Below, one piece after another: positions 2,669 to 39,378 of a stretch of 40,700 bases of DNA. Each line of letters begins with the position of its first letter. The stretch's first letter is position 1. The translations under genes and the position numbers were made by a program. Below the pieces are notes generated by a model. The model was given only the letters and a program-made list of their open reading frames with translations. It was not told where the DNA came from and ran no database searches. This DNA comes from a virus, in the IMG/VR virus record IMGVR_UViG_3300002835_000418, positions 1 to 40,700 of that record, one strand, 5' to 3'.

Positions 2669-3877
2669 ATGTCAAAAATTAAGGTATTAGTAATCCCATC
2701 CGATAGAACAGGTGTGGGTAAATTCAGGTCAGTTGACCCTCACATTTTTTTACAAAATCAATATGGTGATGAATTCCATGTGGATATCGTTTACGATCCT
2801 CCAATGGATACCAATTACTATAAAGACTATCACATTGTACACTATCACAGAAACATTGGTCCTGATTTTGAAAAAGGAACTGAACTTGCAATCAAGTTAA
2901 AGGATATGGGTATTGTCACAATTTGTGATATAGATGATTATTGGATGCCAACTAAAGACCATCCAATTCACGATATTATTCGTGTTCACAAAATCAACGA
3001 AAAGATTATTGCAAGTTTAAAAGTTGCAAAACATATCACAACCACAACATCTATTTTTGCGGATGAAATTTCTAAATTTCATAAGAGTGTTTTTGTTTTA
3101 CCAAACGCAATCAATCCAAACGAATCTCAATTTAAAGAACCAACTCCTGAATCTGATAGAATCCGTATTGGTTGGTTAGGTGGTTCTTCTCACTTGTCTG
3201 ATATTAATCTTTTAGATCAATCATTCAGTAAATTGTCAGGAATCAAAGATAAAACTCAATTTGTAATTTGTGGATTTGATACAAGAGGATCAGTAACTGA
3301 AATTAACGGACAAACAGGAGAACAAACAAAAAGAAATATTTTACCTCACGAAACTGTTTGGGCAACATATGAGAAAGTATTCACCCAAAACTATTCAACA
3401 GTTTCTGATGAGTATCGTGAATATCTTATGAAATACACCCAAGAACCGTATAAAAATGAAAACGATGAGGCATATGTTAGAGTGTGGACAAAACCTGTAA
3501 CATCATATGCTAAGAATTATTCAAAATTTGATATATCTTTGGCGCCAATTAAAAACCATATCTTTAACAGAGTTAAGTCTCAATTAAAGGTTATTGAATC
3601 TGGATTCTATAAGAAAGCACTAATAGCATCTGATATTGGACCATATACCATAGATTTGAAACACGCGTTAAATCATGGTAACTTTACAGACGGAAATGCA
3701 TTATTAGTAGATGAAAATAGAAACCATTCTGATTGGGCTAAATTCATTGAGAAATTAGTTAAGAATCCAAATTGGGTTAAAGACTTAGGTGAGAGATTAT
3801 ATGAAACAGTTAAAGACACATACGATCTTAATAAAGTAACAAAAGATAGAGCTGAACTATACAAAAGTTTAATATGA
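2669..3877 (+). CDS. glycosyltransferase, GT-B fold
   Basis: This 402-residue protein has the plan of a GT4-like glycosyltransferase. An N-terminal Rossmann part begins IKVLVIPSDRTGVGKFRS; a linker near residue 140-150 contains VLPNAINPNE, the usual VxxNxIDxxxF-type turn; and a second Rossmann part begins IRIGWLGGSSH. Near residue 305-330 it reads SQLKVIESGFYKKALIASD, the position of the nucleotide-sugar binding ExxxxE region. It would transfer a sugar from a nucleotide donor to a glycan acceptor in the cytoplasm. It opens the glycan island and its stop overlaps the next start (ATGA). Donor and acceptor cannot be read from the sequence. Confidence 0.8.
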   Translation: MSKIKVLVIPSDRTGVGKFRSVDPHIFLQNQYGDEFHVDIVYDPPMDTNYYKDYHIVHYHRNIGPDFEKGTELAIKLKDMGIVTICDIDDYWMPTKDHPIHDIIRVHKINEKIIASLKVAKHITTTTSIFADEISKFHKSVFVLPNAINPNESQFKEPTPESDRIRIGWLGGSSHLSDINLLDQSFSKLSGIKDKTQFVICGFDTRGSVTEINGQTGEQTKRNILPHETVWATYEKVFTQNYSTVSDEYREYLMKYTQEPYKNENDEAYVRVWTKPVTSYAKNYSKFDISLAPIKNHIFNRVKSQLKVIESGFYKKALIASDIGPYTIDLKHALNHGNFTDGNALLVDENRNHSDWAKFIEKLVKNPNWVKDLGERLYETVKDTYDLNKVTKDRAELYKSLI

Positions 3878-25164: not shown

Positions 25165-25638
25165 ATGACAAAGAAAATCGTAACATTATCAGAATCACAA
25201 CTTTCTGATTTAATTAAAAGAGCTATCAATGAAGCCAATCACGAGACTGAAAACTATATGACGTTTTCCAATCTTCAACAAATGAAAAGACAGATCGACA
25301 TGTTAATGGAATTAGATGAAAACGTTATCGATGAAATTATTCAAAATGGACATGATTGGGCTGATGATCATATAAGTGTTGCTAAAGAAAATATAGATCA
25401 AGTATTTGATTTCTTAATGAATGAAACAAGAAAAAATAACCAATACATTGATTACGAAGAAATGACAGAAGGTAGAAAAAAAACTGGAACAAAACTTTGT
25501 GCAAGGGGAAAATCAGCAGCTCAATCCAAATTTAAAGTTTACCCAAGTGCTTATGCAAACGGGTATGCTGTTCAAGTTTGTAAAGGAAAAATCAAAGGTT
25601 TAGACGGAAAAAAACAATGTTCAGGCGCATATTGTTAA
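25165..25638 (+). CDS. small protein with possible prohead-protease leader and Cys-rich C-terminus
   Basis: This 157-residue protein has three parts. Residues 1-23 (TLSESQLSDLIKRAINE) form a short amphipathic leader ending INE|A, the same sequence as the likely processing site of this phage's capsid protein. The middle is acidic and helical. The C-terminal 50 residues are basic with four cysteines (KLCARGKSAAQSKFKVYPS, YANGYAVQVCKG, QCSGAYC). From memory this last type of domain recurs in large phages with unknown role. Packaging in the prohead followed by cleavage is a reasonable hypothesis. It starts one base after the structural gene. Confidence 0.6.
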   Translation: MTKKIVTLSESQLSDLIKRAINEANHETENYMTFSNLQQMKRQIDMLMELDENVIDEIIQNGHDWADDHISVAKENIDQVFDFLMNETRKNNQYIDYEEMTEGRKKTGTKLCARGKSAAQSKFKVYPSAYANGYAVQVCKGKIKGLDGKKQCSGAYC

Positions 25639-25661
25639 TTCAAAAAATTAATTTATATTTG
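25632..25661 (+). promoter_or_regulatory. Bacteroidota-type promoter, TTG-N19-TAnnTTTG
   Basis: TTG at 25632-25634 and TATATTTG at 25654-25661 are separated by 19 bases, matching the Bacteroidota primary sigma consensus. The ATG at 25666 follows four bases after the box, so the transcript would have almost no leader. The TTG overlaps the end of the previous gene. Confidence 0.5.
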
Positions 25662-25665
25662 TGAT

Positions 25666-26067
25666 ATGAACCAAAATGAAAATTCTGGGATACTATTTAG
25701 ACTATTTTTGTATCTAAAAGATAAATTCGACCCAAAGCCTCCGATAGCAGAAGAAGTTGAAACATGTACACATATCGTACTTAAAGTTCTTGACTACGAA
25801 GACACGGAATTAGTATACGCACCAGTTTCAAACAAAAGATTTATAGTAAATGAAGATAAAGGTATGGCCATCACCATAGAGAATAGAGTCGTCCATATTA
25901 TCAATCACGTATACAGTTATAGTATCTACATGGAAAATAACGAATGTTACAGTAAAATTCTAAAAAAATTTGATGATATTTCTGAAAAGAAAAAAAATGA
26001 ATTAGAGGTAAAACTTACCAATAATATTAAACATTCATTAAAGAAAATATTAGAAGGACTCTCTTAA
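25666..26067 (+). CDS. hypothetical protein
   Basis: This 133-residue protein is not recognised. It begins with a helical, partly hydrophobic segment (SGILFRLFLYLKDKF), followed by a beta-rich middle (HIVLKVLDYEDTELVYAPVS and RFIVNEDKGMAITIENRVVHII) and a basic helical C-terminus. The N-terminal segment is too polar for a clear signal peptide. It has its own host-type promoter and is the last plus-strand gene before the strand changes, so it may be expressed earlier than the late genes. Its 3' end overlaps the end of the next, convergent gene by 18 bases. Confidence 0.6.
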   Translation: MNQNENSGILFRLFLYLKDKFDPKPPIAEEVETCTHIVLKVLDYEDTELVYAPVSNKRFIVNEDKGMAITIENRVVHIINHVYSYSIYMENNECYSKILKKFDDISEKKKNELEVKLTNNIKHSLKKILEGLS

Positions 26068-29397: not shown

Positions 29398-31203
29398 TTA
29401 TCTCAATTCTCTTAAGTCGAAAGTTCTAACTCCATCAACTGTAATTCTACCGTAGAATCTGTTGTTCACCATCTTCTTAGCGTATCTAGTCATGATACCT
29501 TTGATTGGAGTGAAGTTAAACGGATTGTACATTGTAGGTGTAAGTTGTAAAGGTACGTATGGTGCGTAGATGTAACCTGTGTCAAGTAAAGAAGTTCCTT
29601 TGTGACCCAATAACACTTGGTTAGCAGGGAAGTAAGGATCTCTATACACTTGGTAACGTCCAGCTAAAGTACCAACTCTTTCAATACCCATGTTGTATTG
29701 ATCTTGCTCAGGAGCTGCGTTTGAAACGTGGAAATACTCCAAGTCATCAAAAATAGCACTGATTTCAGAAGATACAACGATCCAGTTTGCTCCACCTCTT
29801 AAAGTAGATTTGTGGATTTGAGCTGAAATTTGGTTGATTGCTGTAATCAACGTTTGGTTCCAATCTTTTTGAGTGTAAGGAACAGCGTTGGTACCTAATT
29901 GCTTCCATCCGTTGTAGTTCCATCTTAAGTTCCAAGATGCACCTTTTCTAAGATCTCTCAAGATTTCTCTGTCGATTTCTGCTGCAACTTGCTCAGATAA
30001 TAAAGCTGTTAATTCAGCTTCAGCATCGATGTTGTGGAATGCCGCAACGTCTTGAGCCAATTCAGGTGACCATTGTGCTCTTAACTTTCTTTCTGTAACA
30101 GAAACTGTTACTGCTTGAAGGTCAAAAGAAACCTCACCTAATCTGTCTTCAAATTCCATTTCTTTGTAAACTCTGTACTTACATTTGAACGCTTGGTTGT
30201 AAGCTGTATCAATAACTGTAGTTGTTCCTGAGTAACCATCTAAAGAGTTCGCTCCAACTTCACAAGGAACTTGAAGATCCGCCTCTAAATAGATAACTCC
30301 TGTTACATCACAAATATTATTATAAGAACCACCATTTCCTGTTGAAGGGAATGAAGTTGTTGCCTGACCACCGTATTGAACGATACCCTTACCATAAACC
30401 TGAGTTACAACTCTAAATAATACTGGTGAAGATACACCAGAAAATCCGTTACCTGTGTTTGGATTAGTGATTTTTTGTACTTGTAATGAAGCTAAGAAAG
30501 CTTCAGTATCCATTTCATTACCATCAGGACCGATCAATTGACCAGCACCTGCTGATTGGAAACCAGATAAAGCCATGATAACTTTTCTGTAAGTACCTGC
30601 ACCATATCCTGATTGGATTAATGCGTTACCTGCTGAATCCCAAACTTGAGTTGAAGCTGTGAAAGTCTGTGCAGAGAAAGTACCTTTAGAGTAATCGAAA
30701 AGACCTGGAGGATCCAAATCTGGTTCGTTACCTTCGTAGAAAAGGTCATATAAATCTTTATCGTTTTGGTTATATCCAGCTTGTTGAGATGCAGGACCGT
30801 TTGGTGAACCAAAAGGTGCGTAGTGATCTCCACCATCTTGAGGTAATAACTCGTTAGGTGATTGATATCTTTGGATATGAGGTACAAAGTAGAATAATTT
30901 ACCGATTGGTAAGTTCATTGCTTGTACTGATACGATATCGTTAGCTAATAATTTAGAGAAAACTCTTCTAACGATTGGGAAAACTACAGTTTCGAAAGAA
31001 CCTGATGAGTCTGTTGTTGCAGCCTCATTGATCAAATATGATGCTTGGTTCTCAAATAACTGAGCTACGTTTTCCTTTTGGTGACCTTTAAGACCTTCTA
31101 AAAAGCCTAATTTGTCCCATTTGTTGATTGTGTCTTCTTTGATAACTTTAAGGTGCTTAAGACCGATGTTACCAACAAGACCTGATTCTAATAATGCTCC
31201 CAT
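29398..31203 (-). CDS. major capsid protein, T4 gp23-like
   Basis: This 601-residue protein forms the capsid lattice. It follows gp23: an N-terminal propeptide with LFENQASYLINE, a probable cleavage E60|A61 close to the T4 position (65), then VVFPIVRRVFSKLLANDIVSVQAMNLPIGKLFYF. The C-terminal block VLLGHKGTSLLDTGYIYAPYVPL and FTPIKGIMTRYAKKM match the conserved GxKG..DAG.YYAPYV and G..TRY motifs. It is about 80 residues longer than T4 gp23. No own late-promoter element is seen just upstream, so it probably shares a transcript with the scaffold gene 30 bases away. Confidence 0.95.
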   Translation of the reverse strand: MGALLESGLVGNIGLKHLKVIKEDTINKWDKLGFLEGLKGHQKENVAQLFENQASYLINEAATTDSSGSFETVVFPIVRRVFSKLLANDIVSVQAMNLPIGKLFYFVPHIQRYQSPNELLPQDGGDHYAPFGSPNGPASQQAGYNQNDKDLYDLFYEGNEPDLDPPGLFDYSKGTFSAQTFTASTQVWDSAGNALIQSGYGAGTYRKVIMALSGFQSAGAGQLIGPDGNEMDTEAFLASLQVQKITNPNTGNGFSGVSSPVLFRVVTQVYGKGIVQYGGQATTSFPSTGNGGSYNNICDVTGVIYLEADLQVPCEVGANSLDGYSGTTTVIDTAYNQAFKCKYRVYKEMEFEDRLGEVSFDLQAVTVSVTERKLRAQWSPELAQDVAAFHNIDAEAELTALLSEQVAAEIDREILRDLRKGASWNLRWNYNGWKQLGTNAVPYTQKDWNQTLITAINQISAQIHKSTLRGGANWIVVSSEISAIFDDLEYFHVSNAAPEQDQYNMGIERVGTLAGRYQVYRDPYFPANQVLLGHKGTSLLDTGYIYAPYVPLQLTPTMYNPFNFTPIKGIMTRYAKKMVNNRFYGRITVDGVRTFDLRELR

Positions 31204-31233
31204 TTTAGTATGTTTTGTTTTTTTTATTTTTAT

Positions 31234-32919
31234 TTATCCTATTTTACTCATAAGATCCTTAATTCTTAAGAATTGAGGTGCCTCATAAGTTTTATTCTCC
31301 ATTAGAGTAGCTGATGATCCTGTAGTAACTACTTTGTCAATCTTACCAACAGATTCGTTGATAGATTTACTTGGTGTTTCAACATGACCTAACTCATCTT
31401 TTAGAGTTTTGTATAGATTTTTAGATTCTTTTAAACTTTCAACTCCATCGAATCTTCTTAAGATGTTAATCTTTTCTTTCTTAGTTGTTGAATGCTCTGT
31501 AAATAATCTTGTAGCGTATGCTAAATTTGAATTGAATATTGCAACTTCATTAAGTTTAGATCTAAAAATGTTAAGTGCTTTTCTGTACTCTTCATTCTTC
31601 TCTCTTAATTGTTTTACTTCTTCTTCAACAGATTCTGTATGAACACCACCTTTACCATAAACATAGTTTCTGTTATTAGTGATACCCTTTCTTAAACCTC
31701 TTGATCCGTCTTTAGAGCCGAAACCATATGTACGTGCAGCTTCTTTAGTTTCTTCCTTTTCGAATTTAGCGTCATCTCTACGTGACTTTGTAGAATCAAG
31801 TTTCTTAGAAGCAATTTTACCATGCTTCATAGATAACTTCTCATCTTCTTTGTCCTTGTATCCTTGACCTTCTTTAGTTTCCACTTTTTTAGCTTTACCT
31901 TCCATGTTTTCACCTTTTTTGTATTCAAACTTAGGTTTACCCATACCAACGCCTTTTGTTCCTTGCTTCATTTTCTTTGGTGATTTATATTCTGTTTCAC
32001 CGTCATATTTGAAGTCAGGCTTTCCCATGCCAATACCCTTAGGTTTCATTGCCATTTTAGCCTCTTTTACTCCGACTTTTTTATGGTCGTAAGATTCTTC
32101 CATTTCATCTTCCTCATACATTTCTGATTCCATCTCAATGTCTAATTCAGGATCCATAGATTGCTCGCTCATTTCTGAGTCAACGTCGATTGACATTCCA
32201 CCCATTGGGTCGATATCATCGTCTTCAGCCATTTCGTCGTCCATCTCTATCTCATAAACAATTTCGTCCATTTCTTCGTCGTCCATGTCTTCATCATCCA
32301 TGTCATCCATGTCATCCATGTCTTCTTCAAGGTGAGAATCTCCGTCGAATAGTTTGTTAACAATCATGTCTATATCTGATTCAGAACCCATGTCAGAATC
32401 CATGTCAGAATCCATGTCTAATTCCATGTCTTCTTCATCAAGCTCGTCATCCATAGACTCTTCCATTTCTTCAGATTCGCCTAATTTAACTAAGTATTCA
32501 GCATCTTGATTGTTATCAGTGATGTGAATATCTTCACCGTCTTTTTTAACAATGATACCATCTTCTTCGCCCATAGCCTTAAAAATTTTAAGGATTTCGT
32601 CGTCAGATGCTCCTGTTAAATCGATTGGTTCTTCAGAATCAAAGTCGTCAGATGCATCAAGATCCATTTCGATCTCGTCTTCATCTTCATTATCAACATC
32701 CATATCCATGTCTTCTTCATCAGAATCCATGTCCATTTCAGCATCTAAGTCTAACTCAACCTCATCTTCTTCTTGTTCAGATAGAGATTCCTTTACTAAT
32801 TGACTGATTTCTTCCTTCATAGTAGAAGCAAGTATTCCTTTTGCATTTTGGGCAATAGCTTCTTCAACATTTTTCATTTGAATAAGTGCCTCTTCAACAA
32901 TTGATTTATTTTCTTGCAT
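31234..32919 (-). CDS. prohead core scaffold, T4 gp22-like, highly acidic
   Basis: This 561-residue protein resembles the gp22 scaffold by position (between protease and capsid genes) and by its C-terminal domain. About 435-561 read as LREKNEEYRKALNIFRSKL, then FNSNLAYATRLFTEHSTTKKEK and GVESLKESKNLYKTLKDEL, the helical pattern typical of that protein. Residues of about 50-270 are extremely acidic, with repeated D/E/M units. A lysine-rich middle (about 280-420) contains repeated GMGKPxFxY segments. Scaffold proteins are normally cut up by the prohead protease; sites such as LSE and INE are present. It is about twice the length of T4 gp22. Confidence 0.8.
   Translation of the reverse strand: MQENKSIVEEALIQMKNVEEAIAQNAKGILASTMKEEISQLVKESLSEQEEDEVELDLDAEMDMDSDEEDMDMDVDNEDEDEIEMDLDASDDFDSEEPIDLTGASDDEILKIFKAMGEEDGIIVKKDGEDIHITDNNQDAEYLVKLGESEEMEESMDDELDEEDMELDMDSDMDSDMGSESDIDMIVNKLFDGDSHLEEDMDDMDDMDDEDMDDEEMDEIVYEIEMDDEMAEDDDIDPMGGMSIDVDSEMSEQSMDPELDIEMESEMYEEDEMEESYDHKKVGVKEAKMAMKPKGIGMGKPDFKYDGETEYKSPKKMKQGTKGVGMGKPKFEYKKGENMEGKAKKVETKEGQGYKDKEDEKLSMKHGKIASKKLDSTKSRRDDAKFEKEETKEAARTYGFGSKDGSRGLRKGITNNRNYVYGKGGVHTESVEEEVKQLREKNEEYRKALNIFRSKLNEVAIFNSNLAYATRLFTEHSTTKKEKINILRRFDGVESLKESKNLYKTLKDELGHVETPSKSINESVGKIDKVVTTGSSATLMENKTYEAPQFLRIKDLMSKIG
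32294..32320. repeat. tandem 9-bp repeats inside scaffold gene
   Basis: Three units of TCATCCATG encode alternating acidic and methionine residues in the scaffold's acidic part. Confidence 0.85.
32388..32418. repeat. tandem 12-bp repeats inside scaffold gene
   Basis: Two units of CCATGTCAGAAT plus a partial third encode MDSD-type repeats. The units may expand or shrink by slippage without shifting the frame. Confidence 0.85.
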
Positions 32920-33339: not shown

Positions 33340-33549
33340 TTAATCAATTACTTCATCAATTTTACTTTCAGATACTGAAGTTATTCTCCATTCATGTGAG
33401 AACCCTTCATACTTCTTAGTTACTTTTGCCTCCACATCGGTAACTGAAAAACCTTTAACAAGTTTTTCTTCTCTAATCTTTTTAATTTTACCAGAATTTT
33501 CATCAGGTAAATCATAAGTAATTTTTGCTACAAAATATTTTTCGTCCAT
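33340..33549 (-). CDS. small protein resembling DUF4494
   Basis: This 69-residue protein resembles the Bacteroidota family DUF4494 by eye: KYFVAKITYDLPDENSGKIKKIREEKLVKGFSVTDVEAKV matches the W/YF-x-x-K-x-x-Y, G-x-x-K-K, E-x-x-L-V, S-x-T-x-A/V-E-A pattern, and WRITSVSESKIDEVI the final strand plus E. The family's function is unknown. The gene lies between the prohead protease (six bases away) and a terminator, so it is cotranscribed with the protease. If correct, it is a host-lineage marker inside a head operon. Confidence 0.5.
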   Translation of the reverse strand: MDEKYFVAKITYDLPDENSGKIKKIREEKLVKGFSVTDVEAKVTKKYEGFSHEWRITSVSESKIDEVID

Positions 33550-33555
33550 AATGTT

Positions 33556-34275
33556 TTATTTGCTCAAATAATCGGATAATTTTTTCATTAAATCAATAGA
33601 CTTACCTGTATCTCCTTGAACAGAACCTGACATTATTTTTTCTTCATCTAAATTTTCTTCGTATTTCAATCTGTCTTCAGGATTAGGGAACAGATATGCC
33701 CCTGGTGTTGAAGGGGACGATACTAAATCAAAACAAATTAATTCGAAATCATCCTGTACTTCGTTTCTTTCTCCCACCTTTTTCAATGATCCCACTCCTC
33801 TTGATGATACTCCCATAGTAACTCCTTGTCTCATCAAGTTAGCCGCGATATCTCCTTTAGTTGATACGATACCACTCTCATGGAATCCTGGCGATGTCAA
33901 TAATTTTAACTTACCCATTAAGATATTTCCTTCCCACCAAATATCAGTAATAATGTGAGCGACTCTATCAAGGTCAATCAAAGAAGATTCTGGGTGATTC
34001 AACTCTGAAGTTGACAAACCTTTGGATATAGTTTTTTTATATCTATCCGCTTCTCTTTTCAATATTCTTTCAGGATAAAATCTTCCGTTCCTGTTAGGTG
34101 TGTTATACTTCTGTAAAACAGCGTAGAACTCAAAAGGTTTCTTATGGTCTAACATGTTACTCTCTTTTAACACAGATTCATTAAGAACATCGGTAGGAGA
34201 AACATATCCCGCGTCCATTTCGATCAAAATTCCTTTTCCTGATTCATTAGGACCAAGTATACGTAATTCTTTCAT
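33556..34275 (-). CDS. prohead core protease, T4 gp21-like
   Basis: This 239-residue serine protease cuts scaffold, capsid and internal proteins after glutamate during head maturation. The probable catalytic elements are H94 in ELNHPE, S157 or S158 in GVSSRG, and D183 in CFDLVSSPSTPGA. These fit the H...S...D order of the gp21 family. The start has a gene-specific promoter element 12 bases upstream. The gene order (portal, core genes, protease, scaffold, capsid) is that of T4. Length is close to T4 gp21 (212). The N-terminus contains LNE, a possible self-cleavage site. Confidence 0.9.
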   Translation of the reverse strand: MKELRILGPNESGKGILIEMDAGYVSPTDVLNESVLKESNMLDHKKPFEFYAVLQKYNTPNRNGRFYPERILKREADRYKKTISKGLSTSELNHPESSLIDLDRVAHIITDIWWEGNILMGKLKLLTSPGFHESGIVSTKGDIAANLMRQGVTMGVSSRGVGSLKKVGERNEVQDDFELICFDLVSSPSTPGAYLFPNPEDRLKYEENLDEEKIMSGSVQGDTGKSIDLMKKLSDYLSK

Positions 34276-34751: not shown

Positions 34752-34770
34752 TATGTTTCATGTTATAAAA

Positions 34771-34790
34771 GTTTATTTGTTTGTATAAAC
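34771..34790. repeat. short inverted repeat in divergent region
   Basis: GTTTAT and ATAAAC flank an eight-base T/G loop in the 96-base divergent gap 34752-34847, between the minus gene 34287-34751 and bS21. A second small pair, GTCA and TGAC, flanks five A at 34812-34824. Function, possibly in regulation, is unknown. Confidence 0.45.
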
Positions 34791-34834
34791 ATAAAAAATT
34801 TTATACCATTAGTCAAAAAATGACGAATCTAAAA

Positions 34835-34842
34835 TATATTTA
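34835..34842 (+). promoter_or_regulatory. candidate promoter variant TATATTTAAT before bS21
   Basis: TATATTTAAT lies immediately upstream of the ATG at 34848 and is a one-base-shifted variant of the recurrent element. A TATTTAAT copy also precedes the portal gene on the minus strand (37614-37621). Confidence 0.35.
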
Positions 34843-34847
34843 ATATT

Positions 34848-35033
34848 ATGATTATTGTAGAAATTGGAAAAAATGAAAATATAGAAAGAGCATTAAAAAC
34901 TCTTAAGTCTAAAGTTATTAAAACGAAACAACAAAAAATACTTTTTGAAAGAAAAGAATTTGTAAAGCCGTCAGTTAAAAAGAGAACACAAAAATTAAAG
35001 GCAATCTATTCTGAAAGAATGAGACAAGGTTAG
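34848..35033 (+). CDS. rpsU: ribosomal protein bS21 (phage-encoded)
   Basis: This 61-residue basic protein matches bacterial bS21 along its length: IIVEIGKNENIERALKTLKSKV, then LFERKEFVKPSVKKRTQKLKA, the KPSxKR signature. bS21 is a small-subunit protein near the anti-Shine-Dalgarno. In Bacteroidota, where most mRNAs lack the Shine-Dalgarno, bS21 helps hide that region, and phage bS21 is known from viral genomes. Here the gene is on the plus strand inside a minus-strand head operon, with its 3' end overlapping that of the neighbouring gene by four bases. It probably replaces or competes with host bS21 and favours phage mRNAs. Confidence 0.9.
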   Translation: MIIVEIGKNENIERALKTLKSKVIKTKQQKILFERKEFVKPSVKKRTQKLKAIYSERMRQG

Positions 35034-35752: not shown

Positions 35753-37585
35753 TTAGGAATTTAATAAGTTATCCAATTCTTTTTCCATTTCTCCTAAAAA
35801 TTGTTGTCCTTGACTCAAATCCAAAATATCTCGACCTTTAATCATGTCACTATCTAACAAAATATTCATGTTAGCGAAACGGGACTCTGGTACTGTTTCT
35901 GCCGGTGTTTCTCCTGCAGGTGCCTCTTCAGGACTAGGAGTTGGTTCTTCACCTCCTGCTGGTGGTGTTGGGAATCCTCCACCTAACGGTTCTGTTACTT
36001 CACCCTCAGGAGTTGCTCCCGTTGCCGTGGATCCTGTAACCGTTCCATATAACTTATCTATATTATCGAATATTCCTGTCTTTTGAATAACAGCAGGTGT
36101 GTTTTTAAGTTCTTCACCAACAGCCTTTTCAATTCTCTGTTGTTGTAAATCAATTTTAATTTCTTCGTCGGAGAATCCAAGAATATGTTTTTTAGCCCAA
36201 GTAGAAGATACAGGTTGTATACCATTTCCAGGGTCTGAAACTGCATCTTTGTATAGTAATACTTTTTCTTTCCAAACGTCAATTTTTAATAGATCAGCTT
36301 GAGTAGACGGATTTGTTAATCCAAGTGTAAAGTTTTCAATTTCTTCTTCAAACCCTAATAAAAATAAGTGGATGATAGCAACTTTATTAAGTTCTGCTAG
36401 CATACTCTTTTGAATTCTATTAATAGTTCTGGCAAATCGAATATCTTGTAATGCTAAATTTTTTCCATCACCAACAACCTCCTCAAAACCTAAGAAAGCT
36501 TTAGGTACACGAAGTGCTGTTAAAAGTTTCTTTTGAATATATTCGATGTCCGCAATTTCCGCTAAGTTTTGTGCGCCAGCTAATGTTTCGATAGGACTCG
36601 GTGCTGCCGGATCTCTAACAGGTACGAAAAAATCTTGGTCAACTGCCATCTGATTAAATCTCATATCAACGTTACCTGTTTTTTGATCAACAACTTGATC
36701 TCTTTTGAATTTGTTTGCAACACGTTGTACATATGCCTCAACATCTGCATCTTCCATATTACCAACAAACACTTTGAAAATTCTTCTTTCAGGTGCTCTT
36801 GATGTTCTATAGATTAACATTGCATCTTCAGATAACAATAATTGTTTCCATATTCTTCTTGCTTTTTCTAGCATAGATGTTCCATATGGAAGTTTTCTGT
36901 CATCACCTAATAATCTAAAGTGAGCAATTTCCCATGATTGGAATTCCATATTTTTATTCTTCCAAGTAAAATGAAGTGCTTTGTGTTCTGTAGGATTTTC
37001 GATAGATTGTGCCCTTCTTTCGTGCATACCTGCTTCGACTCTTTCAATTTCAATATTCGGTAATTGTTGTACACCAACAACACCTTTTTCAGGGTCTAAT
37101 TTAAGATACACAAAATTATCACCATACTTACATGCGTTTCTTGTCCACATTGCTAAGTTAGTGTTGACATCCATTGTATTGTTAAATAAATCGGCTAATA
37201 CACCTTTGATTCTTTTTGATTCAGAATAAATTTGTAATATAAATCCATCTTCGTTTGTTGTTGTAGATTCCTCAGCATAGATATCTAATGCTGCAGAAAT
37301 TTCAGGAGTATACTCCATCGACTCATAATCATAAACTGAGGCAAGTCTTGTTGGTTCATAATAAACCGCTTGAGAATACATGTTATTCTCAACTTTCGCC
37401 CATTGGTTGGACAGATAAAAGGTTTGCTGTGCCTGAAGTTTTTCACGCTCATATTGTTCTTTATCTTGGGTTCTTAGTAACTCTTTTTTATCGAACTTGA
37501 GCGTAGGATAATCTTGATTCAAAAGAGAGTTAGGACCAAAAGCTTGGGATAATCTTTGCCAGACCGTTAGGTTCTTTTCATTCAT
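35753..37585 (-). CDS. portal vertex protein, T4 gp20-like
   Basis: This 610-residue protein forms the ring through which DNA enters and leaves the head. It follows gp20: EYTPEISAALDIYAEES (about 91-107), then NIEIERVE, and the diagnostic IYRTSRAPERRIFKVFVGNM (258-277) followed by a VANKFKRDQVVDQKTGNVD segment. Later come ALRVPKAFLGF and the crown-type helical part. It exceeds T4 gp20 (524) largely through a proline/glutamate/threonine-rich tail at about 525-580 before the last helix. The upstream spacer contains a TATTTAAT variant. Confidence 0.93.
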   Translation of the reverse strand: MNEKNLTVWQRLSQAFGPNSLLNQDYPTLKFDKKELLRTQDKEQYEREKLQAQQTFYLSNQWAKVENNMYSQAVYYEPTRLASVYDYESMEYTPEISAALDIYAEESTTTNEDGFILQIYSESKRIKGVLADLFNNTMDVNTNLAMWTRNACKYGDNFVYLKLDPEKGVVGVQQLPNIEIERVEAGMHERRAQSIENPTEHKALHFTWKNKNMEFQSWEIAHFRLLGDDRKLPYGTSMLEKARRIWKQLLLSEDAMLIYRTSRAPERRIFKVFVGNMEDADVEAYVQRVANKFKRDQVVDQKTGNVDMRFNQMAVDQDFFVPVRDPAAPSPIETLAGAQNLAEIADIEYIQKKLLTALRVPKAFLGFEEVVGDGKNLALQDIRFARTINRIQKSMLAELNKVAIIHLFLLGFEEEIENFTLGLTNPSTQADLLKIDVWKEKVLLYKDAVSDPGNGIQPVSSTWAKKHILGFSDEEIKIDLQQQRIEKAVGEELKNTPAVIQKTGIFDNIDKLYGTVTGSTATGATPEGEVTEPLGGGFPTPPAGGEEPTPSPEEAPAGETPAETVPESRFANMNILLDSDMIKGRDILDLSQGQQFLGEMEKELDNLLNS

Positions 37586-37623: not shown

Positions 37624-39378
37624 TTATTTCCCGAATAACCATAAATACTTTTGATAATCGCTTTTTGTTGCTTCTGATGGATACCTTCCACTGTTTGTTC
37701 CACCTGCAGGTATCATAGGATTGAAAAAGTCGGACCTATTTCTATTTTCGTTAACACTTGTATGCCAAGCATCAATCATAACCTTAGTCTGACTCACAAC
37801 TTTCGATAAACTTTGGAATGAAGTATCTCCGACGTAAATCGCCATTGATATTGCCATAATCAAATCATCATGATGACCTTTTTGGTGATCAGGTCTTCCA
37901 TGAACATATATGAATTTTCCCATTTCATTCAATAACCTTGATGATCTGATTTTGAAATCATGTCTCAGTGCCTCTTCGAATGCTGCAATAATTTGTACAC
38001 GTTTGTTATTGAAATTAATTCCAGGAATTTTTTCGTCTCTTTTGGGATCCCACTTATATTTGTTTTTATCTGTAACACCCTCAACGTATAAATTCTTATA
38101 CCCCAACTCTTGTAGTTTTCTTGCTGTTGCAACACCCATACCTCCTGTTAAATCCGTCACTGCAAAGGCATTATACATATTACCCCATTTAAATGCAATT
38201 TCCGCCAATGTATCTGGTGGTAATTTTCCGACGTATTCGAATACTTGTTCTCTATCATCGAAGTCTATTATCACAATACATGAGAAGTCCTCTGAATCAC
38301 CTCTGGATACGTCAATACCCATAATATACTTGTGTGTTAATACAGGTTCTTTCCATATCCACAAATTACCCGCCATCATCTTTCCATCTGGTTCTTTGAT
38401 GTCGTTTTCTTTGATTCTCATTAATTGGTTGGCATCAAACACATTATCACCCGATCCCAAGAAGTTACACTCTAATTCCTGTGCAACTTTTCTCTTGTCA
38501 TACTTAAGTTTTTTAACCATTCCCTCGAACCATGTCGAGTATGGTTTATACCCTTTAGACAAATATTCATTTACAATCGTGTAATCTCTTTCATATGAAT
38601 TTTCGACTGTGAGGTCAACTATCTCTGTATTAGGATAATTTTCTCGATTCAAAAGATACTCAACAAGATCTTCAGTTTTAACCATCTGTAAATCTTTATT
38701 GTATCTTGGATCTTTGAACCAAAACATCTCAGTGATGTTAAATGTATTCATCTTTCTGAGAGCCTGATCGTAGATTTCATAATAAATTGGATCATATCCA
38801 TTTGGGGTAGAAATTACAATAACCTTACCACCCGTAGATAGTGAGGCCATACAAGCAGCCCAAAAGTCATCATCGGCTTCAATGTAAGCAGCTTCATCGA
38901 AAATTAGTATTGTAGGTGTATATCCACGTAAGGCATCCTTCGAAGTTGCAACGGCTTTAACTTCACATCCATTTATAAGTTTGAAATGTCGAGCGGCGTT
39001 TTTGTCAGGAGAAAATCCAGCACCAACCCATTGAGGCCATTGTTCGGTAAATGACCTAACTTTATTGGCAAACTCAACCGCAGTGTCAAGTTTGTTGGCA
39101 ATGATAAGAACCTTTTCGGGGTTATTCTTTTTTGCGAATACAAGTCTTTTCGATGCCCAAGCAGCAGTCACAGTCGATACCCCTGCCTGTCTATATTTCA
39201 GGGCAATATTTTCGTTGTGGTTGTCGTAATCTTCAACCAATGTAACTTGGTCAGGAAACAAATCCAAAGGAACATACTTCTTCACCGTATTGTCAAACGT
39301 TTGAAGATATGTTCTCATGGCGTACGGAGTGTTTTTCATACACTTCGTAGCTTCAATAATTAATTGTTCTTTTGTCAC
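37624..39378 (-). CDS. terminase large subunit, T4 gp17-like
   Basis: This 584-residue protein packages DNA. The ATPase part has an adenine-binding PDQ segment (42-44), KYRQAGVST (61-69) as Walker A, and ILIFDEA (157-163) as Walker B with the catalytic glutamate. The nuclease part has GIDVSRGDSEDF (354-365, D356), TDL (408-410, D409) and HHDD (502-505). The usual Walker A lysine before S/T is absent; K61 stands at the start of the loop, as in the deviant form of lambda gpA. It starts with GTG, six bases after the preceding stop. Length is near T4 gp17 (610). Confidence 0.95.
   Translation of the reverse strand: MTKEQLIIEATKCMKNTPYAMRTYLQTFDNTVKKYVPLDLFPDQVTLVEDYDNHNENIALKYRQAGVSTVTAAWASKRLVFAKKNNPEKVLIIANKLDTAVEFANKVRSFTEQWPQWVGAGFSPDKNAARHFKLINGCEVKAVATSKDALRGYTPTILIFDEAAYIEADDDFWAACMASLSTGGKVIVISTPNGYDPIYYEIYDQALRKMNTFNITEMFWFKDPRYNKDLQMVKTEDLVEYLLNRENYPNTEIVDLTVENSYERDYTIVNEYLSKGYKPYSTWFEGMVKKLKYDKRKVAQELECNFLGSGDNVFDANQLMRIKENDIKEPDGKMMAGNLWIWKEPVLTHKYIMGIDVSRGDSEDFSCIVIIDFDDREQVFEYVGKLPPDTLAEIAFKWGNMYNAFAVTDLTGGMGVATARKLQELGYKNLYVEGVTDKNKYKWDPKRDEKIPGINFNNKRVQIIAAFEEALRHDFKIRSSRLLNEMGKFIYVHGRPDHQKGHHDDLIMAISMAIYVGDTSFQSLSKVVSQTKVMIDAWHTSVNENRNRSDFFNPMIPAGGTNSGRYPSEATKSDYQKYLWLFGK

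Follow-up and report, generated by a model that had tools for sequence, protein, structure and literature searches.

Ribosomal protein bS21 is known to be encoded by phages of Bacteroidetes. Chen et al. 2022 (PMC9723584) described five clades (a-e) of such phages in which bS21 is located on the reverse strand in the TerL/portal/protease/capsid region, is expressed together with late structural genes in metatranscriptomes, and has an aromatic residue at position 54 and divergence around residues 21-28. The host gene rpsU of Flavobacterium johnsoniae has an extended Shine-Dalgarno (SD) sequence, and ribosomes without bS21 translate it most efficiently, which constitutes autoregulation (McNutt et al. 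2023, PMC9976891). In the same study, ribosomes with truncated bS21 initiated more weakly on mRNAs without an SD, and the authors speculated that the rpsU feedback would counter an exchange of bS21 by phages. Finally, bS21 of the Pelagibacter phage HTVC008M enters E. coli ribosomes (Mizuno et al. 2019, PMC6375957).

We analyzed a bS21 gene in a 40,700-nt stretch of viral DNA, hereafter the window (IMG/VR record IMGVR_UViG_3300002835_000418). This bS21 is a further member of the published Bacteroidetes phage system, and the features of its locus are listed in Table 1.

The bS21 gene, its genomic setting and its losses

The initial annotation had identified the 61-residue product as bS21 of Bacteroidota affinity, and both statements were supported. 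A Pfam profile search matched PF01165 (E 2.3e-12, 42.5 bits versus a curated cut-off of 27), the alignment covering profile positions 2-53 of 55, and the closest solved structures are Bacteroidota chains (9i5v, 1.3e-8; 7jil from F. johnsoniae, 2e-8), which agrees with the presence of Tyr54. The ORF is not a chance one, since 184 relatives were confirmed by tblastn in IMG/VR and dN is much lower than dS in all comparisons that allowed an estimate of the two (for example, 0.04 versus 0.69 and 0.07 versus 3.2); judged by these rates, the gene is kept under purifying selection.

Residue 54 is Tyr in 42 of 45 phage proteins, His in the other three, and Tyr in all 61 host proteins. In Bacteroidota bS21 the aromatic ring of Tyr54 stacks on A1534 and occludes the anti-SD. 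Ten positions (E5, L19, S21, V23, I24, K27, Q28, K36, E37 and L50) are fixed or nearly fixed in phage bS21 and rare in the 61 hosts; most of them fall within helix 1 and the turn after it, with a cluster at residues 19-28. In the bS21 tree the phage copies form one clade (support 90/94), separate from the Flavobacterium clade and placed in the half with Bacteroidia hosts, the latter split being weakly supported (13/41) in this tree of a 60-aa protein. One sequence (L162) was excluded from the final phage statistics, since it appears to be of host type or separate: it is 77% identical to F. johnsoniae bS21 and its upstream region differs.

Table 1. Genes and promoter-like elements at the bS21 locus (positions in the window).
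Feature	Position	Strand	Remarks
Major capsid protein (MCP)	29398-31203	-	phrog_138, E 2e-67
Head maturation protease	33556-34275	-	phrog_207, E 1e-43
Divergent conserved gene, 154 aa	34287-34751	-	function not assigned; predicted alpha/beta model
Divergent intergenic region	34752-34847		96 nt (79-108 nt in relatives); no SD before bS21 (+1.8 kcal/mol)
AAATAAAC	34771-34778	-	26-30 nt before ATG of 154-aa gene; conserved in 26/26 representatives
TATGTTTA	34786-34793	-	-7-like element of divergent 154-aa gene, 20 nt past TTG
TTTTGAC	34812-34818	-	-33 element of divergent 154-aa gene; reads GTCAAAA on + strand
TATATTTA	34835-34842	+	-7-box-like, 5 nt before bS21 ATG; host consensus TAHHTTTG
bS21 (ribosomal protein S21)	34848-35033	+	61 aa, Tyr54 present; ORF exactly at this position
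Convergent conserved helical protein, 232 aa	35030-35728	-	function not assigned; stop codon overlaps bS21 stop
Portal protein	35753-37585	-	phrog_213, E 8e-67
Large terminase (TerL)	37624-39378	-	phrog_2, E 7e-39

The gene is antisense to the head genes, between those for portal and protease, and its position and gap are fixed in about 100 loci. It had been placed initially inside the head operon on the opposite strand: the reversed orientation within the head block holds, but a single operon is improbable, since Chen et al. (PMC9723584) found that the block is not transcribed as one unit. A search for a terminator 3' of bS21 in the window yielded only a weak hairpin (z -1.2). In one relative without bS21 (L283, positions 2369-2440), the former place of the gene between the 232-aa and 154-aa genes is occupied by a strong terminator-like hairpin (z -8.0).

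The 154-aa protein is strongly conserved among large phages, with at least 593 stretches found in IMG/VR, and its alpha/beta model is confident (pLDDT 87). Fold searches did not reveal a convincing known relative: the best PDB match had a Z of 7.5, which is within background, and one viral match was to an uncharacterised protein. By sequence, no match was found in the annotated phage collection. The gene may correspond to the one called 'bS21_CN' by Chen et al. The fold search with the 232-aa protein matched uncharacterised viral proteins only. Three further features of the minus strand were observed: a small DUF4494 gene (PF14902, E 2e-9; 33340-33549) adjoins the protease gene; GATAAATA at 31231-31238, about 27 nt 5' of the MCP start, has the look of a T4-type late promoter; and a 272-aa protein with a C-terminal zinc ribbon (PF13240; 26685-27503) is encoded at the head-block boundary.

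In the bS21-bearing relatives examined, bS21 adjoins the 154-aa gene. Obligate linkage of the two genes was rejected, since 15 of the 77 relatives found via the 154-aa gene with enough upstream sequence have no bS21. As far as their sequences extend, these 15 retain the order portal, 232-aa gene, 154-aa gene, protease; the 232-aa and 154-aa genes are 66-136 nt apart, and no bS21 was found elsewhere in twelve such records (one of 309 kb), which may be fragments. In the tree of the 154-aa protein, the loci without bS21 fall into two groups that stand apart. One of these sits, with strong support, among phages that carry bS21, and the well-supported branches of the tree force two changes. The simplest reading of this tree is that bS21 is an old gene which was cleanly lost at least twice; because gene order is otherwise unchanged in the relatives that lost it, bS21 appears to be useful but dispensable.

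Promoter-like elements and Shine-Dalgarno sequences at the bS21 start

A promoter-like element directly upstream of bS21 had also been noted initially. A box is indeed present there, but the conspicuous promoter-like sequence in the gap, TTTTGAC-N20-TATGTTTA, lies on the minus strand. The pattern TTG-N20-TAnnTTT is exact in 41 of 49 distinct loci with bS21 and in seven of nine without it, and since TTTTGAC is retained at this place in relatives that have no bS21, this promoter was assigned to the 154-aa gene. For the same reason GTCAAAA-N-ATATTTG was rejected as a single bS21 promoter, although each phage record has one such pair, at bS21. Hence the only candidate for bS21's own promoter is TATATTTA, and the divergent gene has the stronger of the promoters in the gap.

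Of 38 divergent phage representatives, 20 have a -7-type box (at least 5/6 match) 4-8 nt upstream of the bS21 ATG; the same holds for 30 of 399 other ORFs of the phages (Fisher p 2.5e-11) and for none of 67 hosts. In the flavobacterial rpsU loci the -7 box TAHHTTTG is located 28-32 nt before the ATG (75/80), which agrees with the 25-nt leader of F. johnsoniae rpsU (PMC9976891). Host transcription starts 4-5 nt past the -7 box (PMC6847099); given that the phage box abuts the ATG, its position predicts that the phage bS21 mRNA may be nearly leaderless, a type that accounts for only about 5% of mRNAs in Flavobacterium (PMC9723704). The phage box is degenerate: it reads TATATTTA in the window and, with G in first position, GATATTTG in many relatives. 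The first T of the box is reportedly near-invariant in hosts. Elsewhere in the window (25632-26067, plus strand), a 133-aa orphan gene (25666-26067) has a perfect host-type promoter, TTG-N19-TATATTTG, whose end is 4 nt upstream of the ATG; it is another predicted near-leaderless phage gene.

SD strength was calculated as the energy of pairing with the 16S tail UCACCUCCUUUCU at up to 22 nt from the start. For the host sample 80 flavobacterial rpsU loci were fetched, yielding 67 distinct upstream sequences with a median of -19.8 kcal/mol (range -22.1 to -17.6). None of the 79 distinct phage bS21 leaders of the window's lineage has an extended SD (median -0.5, best -3.8 kcal/mol), and the leader in the window does not reach the -13 kcal/mol threshold for autoregulated Flavobacteriales rpsU. 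As these energies are far weaker than those of host rpsU, the phage copies lack the feedback signal. Starts are SD-poor in the 399 other phage ORFs as well (median -1.7 kcal/mol, 1.8% below -8), and therefore the missing SD of bS21 may reflect the general start style of the phage rather than selection.

Two generalizations were rejected. A strong rpsU SD is not Bacteroidota-wide, because only 36 of 68 rpsU genes in a broad FCB sample are below -13 kcal/mol, which limits the strong-SD claim to flavobacterial-type hosts. Nor is the SD lost in all phage bS21 genes: the one in the 735-kb phage LR756501 (L223; positions 3001-3177), from another lineage than the window's, has AAAGGAGG (-12.1 kcal/mol). 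In some phages, bS21 may have retained SD control or acquired it again.

A proposed feedback-blind supply of bS21 and its alternatives

Since the host rpsU feedback works via bS21-less ribosomes and the phage mRNA has no SD, the phage gene is predicted to be blind to this feedback; as far as the sequences indicate, the phage probably escapes host control of bS21. Our main reading, to which we assign a probability of about one half, is that a ribosome-incorporated bS21 made blind to host feedback is supplied for late phage protein synthesis. The Bacteroidota-type phage bS21 would enter the host 30S subunit, replacing the host bS21 or adding to it; its mRNA, which has no extended SD and would have almost no leader, would be read by replete ribosomes, as other phage mRNAs; the product would keep ribosomes replete and good at SD-less mRNAs, with host rpsU shut off; and the residues of helix 1 and the turn that are fixed in phages may give ribosomes a further, phage-specific property. 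It is possible, though doubtful, that this autoregulation-blind, near-leaderless bS21 goes further and fills bS21-less ribosomes, switches off the rpsU feedback and commits the ribosomes to phage bS21.

Several observations weigh against the supply reading. An SD is missing from nearly all phage genes, and its absence from bS21 may mean only that the gene came without the host leader; the -7 box is degenerate, and some Bacteroidota rpsU genes, perhaps that of the actual host among them, have no strong SD; and a gene lost at least twice is not essential.

In the published model, the phage protein takes the place of host bS21, and its altered N-terminal half (R21S, F23V, D24I, G27K and T28Q) makes the ribosomes prefer phage transcripts. 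The clustering at 19-28 among the ten phage-fixed positions is in line with this, as are the divergence of the same region and the late co-expression with structural genes reported by Chen et al. (PMC9723584). We consider such preference unlikely, however, because phage starts, compared by their SD, showed no distinctive feature: they are SD-poor, and Bacteroidota mRNAs are themselves reported to be so. In addition, neither the head genes nor their order differ in the relatives that have no bS21. The absence of a distinguishing SD signal at phage starts is the reason for favouring supply over mRNA selection. It also speaks against the suggestion of the initial annotation that bS21 retunes initiation toward phage mRNAs: with SD-poor starts in the 399 phage ORFs, a freed anti-SD would favour nothing in phage mRNAs, and the occluding Tyr54 is kept or is His. 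Separate timing of bS21 expression, proposed there too, was not upheld: the bS21 box differs from the neighbour's promoter, yet published metatranscriptomes show bS21 expressed with late genes (Chen et al., PMC9723584).

Control specific to leaderless mRNAs would imply that the bS21 mRNA starts at the AUG or within 1-3 nt of it and is read mainly by infection-altered ribosomes, with feedback unlike the host's. The significant enrichment of the box next to the ATG, the distance from box to start in hosts (PMC6847099) and the small share of leaderless mRNAs in Flavobacterium (PMC9723704) argue for it, but the box is degenerate in many relatives and the start site is a prediction; we regard this explanation as improbable. 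Least probable of all is an ordinary acquired host gene of minor benefit (e.g. ribosome repair) and no regulatory meaning, which would fit the two or more clean losses, the absence from the 309-kb relative and the SD-less starts that are the phage norm, but not the long retention under purifying selection, the residues fixed phage-wide and the constant position and gap.

Host bS21 in Flavobacterium represents a published specialised-ribosome feedback, and the phage copies examined are without its signal. The SD contrast together with the natural losses makes the speculation of McNutt et al. (PMC9976891) directly testable, as escape from, or even repression of, host rpsU. Ready comparisons are offered by the two lineages in which the gene was lost naturally and whose gene order is otherwise identical.

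Comparison with described systems

As in the phages of Chen et al. (PMC9723584), bS21 in the window is antisense between two hypothetical genes in the TerL/portal/protease/MCP region, has Tyr54 (sometimes His among the relatives) and diverges near residues 21-28. The GC content is similar (32.5% versus 31-33.7%), and PhoH, dUTPase and sugar-modification genes (glycosyltransferases in the window) are nearby in both. Unlike those phages, the window is a 40.7-kb fragment, and it was likened to them by gene layout; a TerL search of phage records gave matches below 60% identity only. The SD contrast, the box position and the losses were not found reported in the open-access literature searched, including the available part of Chen et al.

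The bS21 of HTVC008M (PMC6375957) is likewise phage-encoded; its incorporation was demonstrated, while that of the window's protein is predicted. HTVC008M differs in host phylum and phage, and is without the Bacteroidota context of anti-SD occlusion. Compared with Flavobacterium rpsU (PMC9976891), the phage gene encodes a member of the same protein family with Tyr54 retained, but has neither the extended SD (+1.8 versus about -19.8 kcal/mol) nor the leader of about 25 nt.
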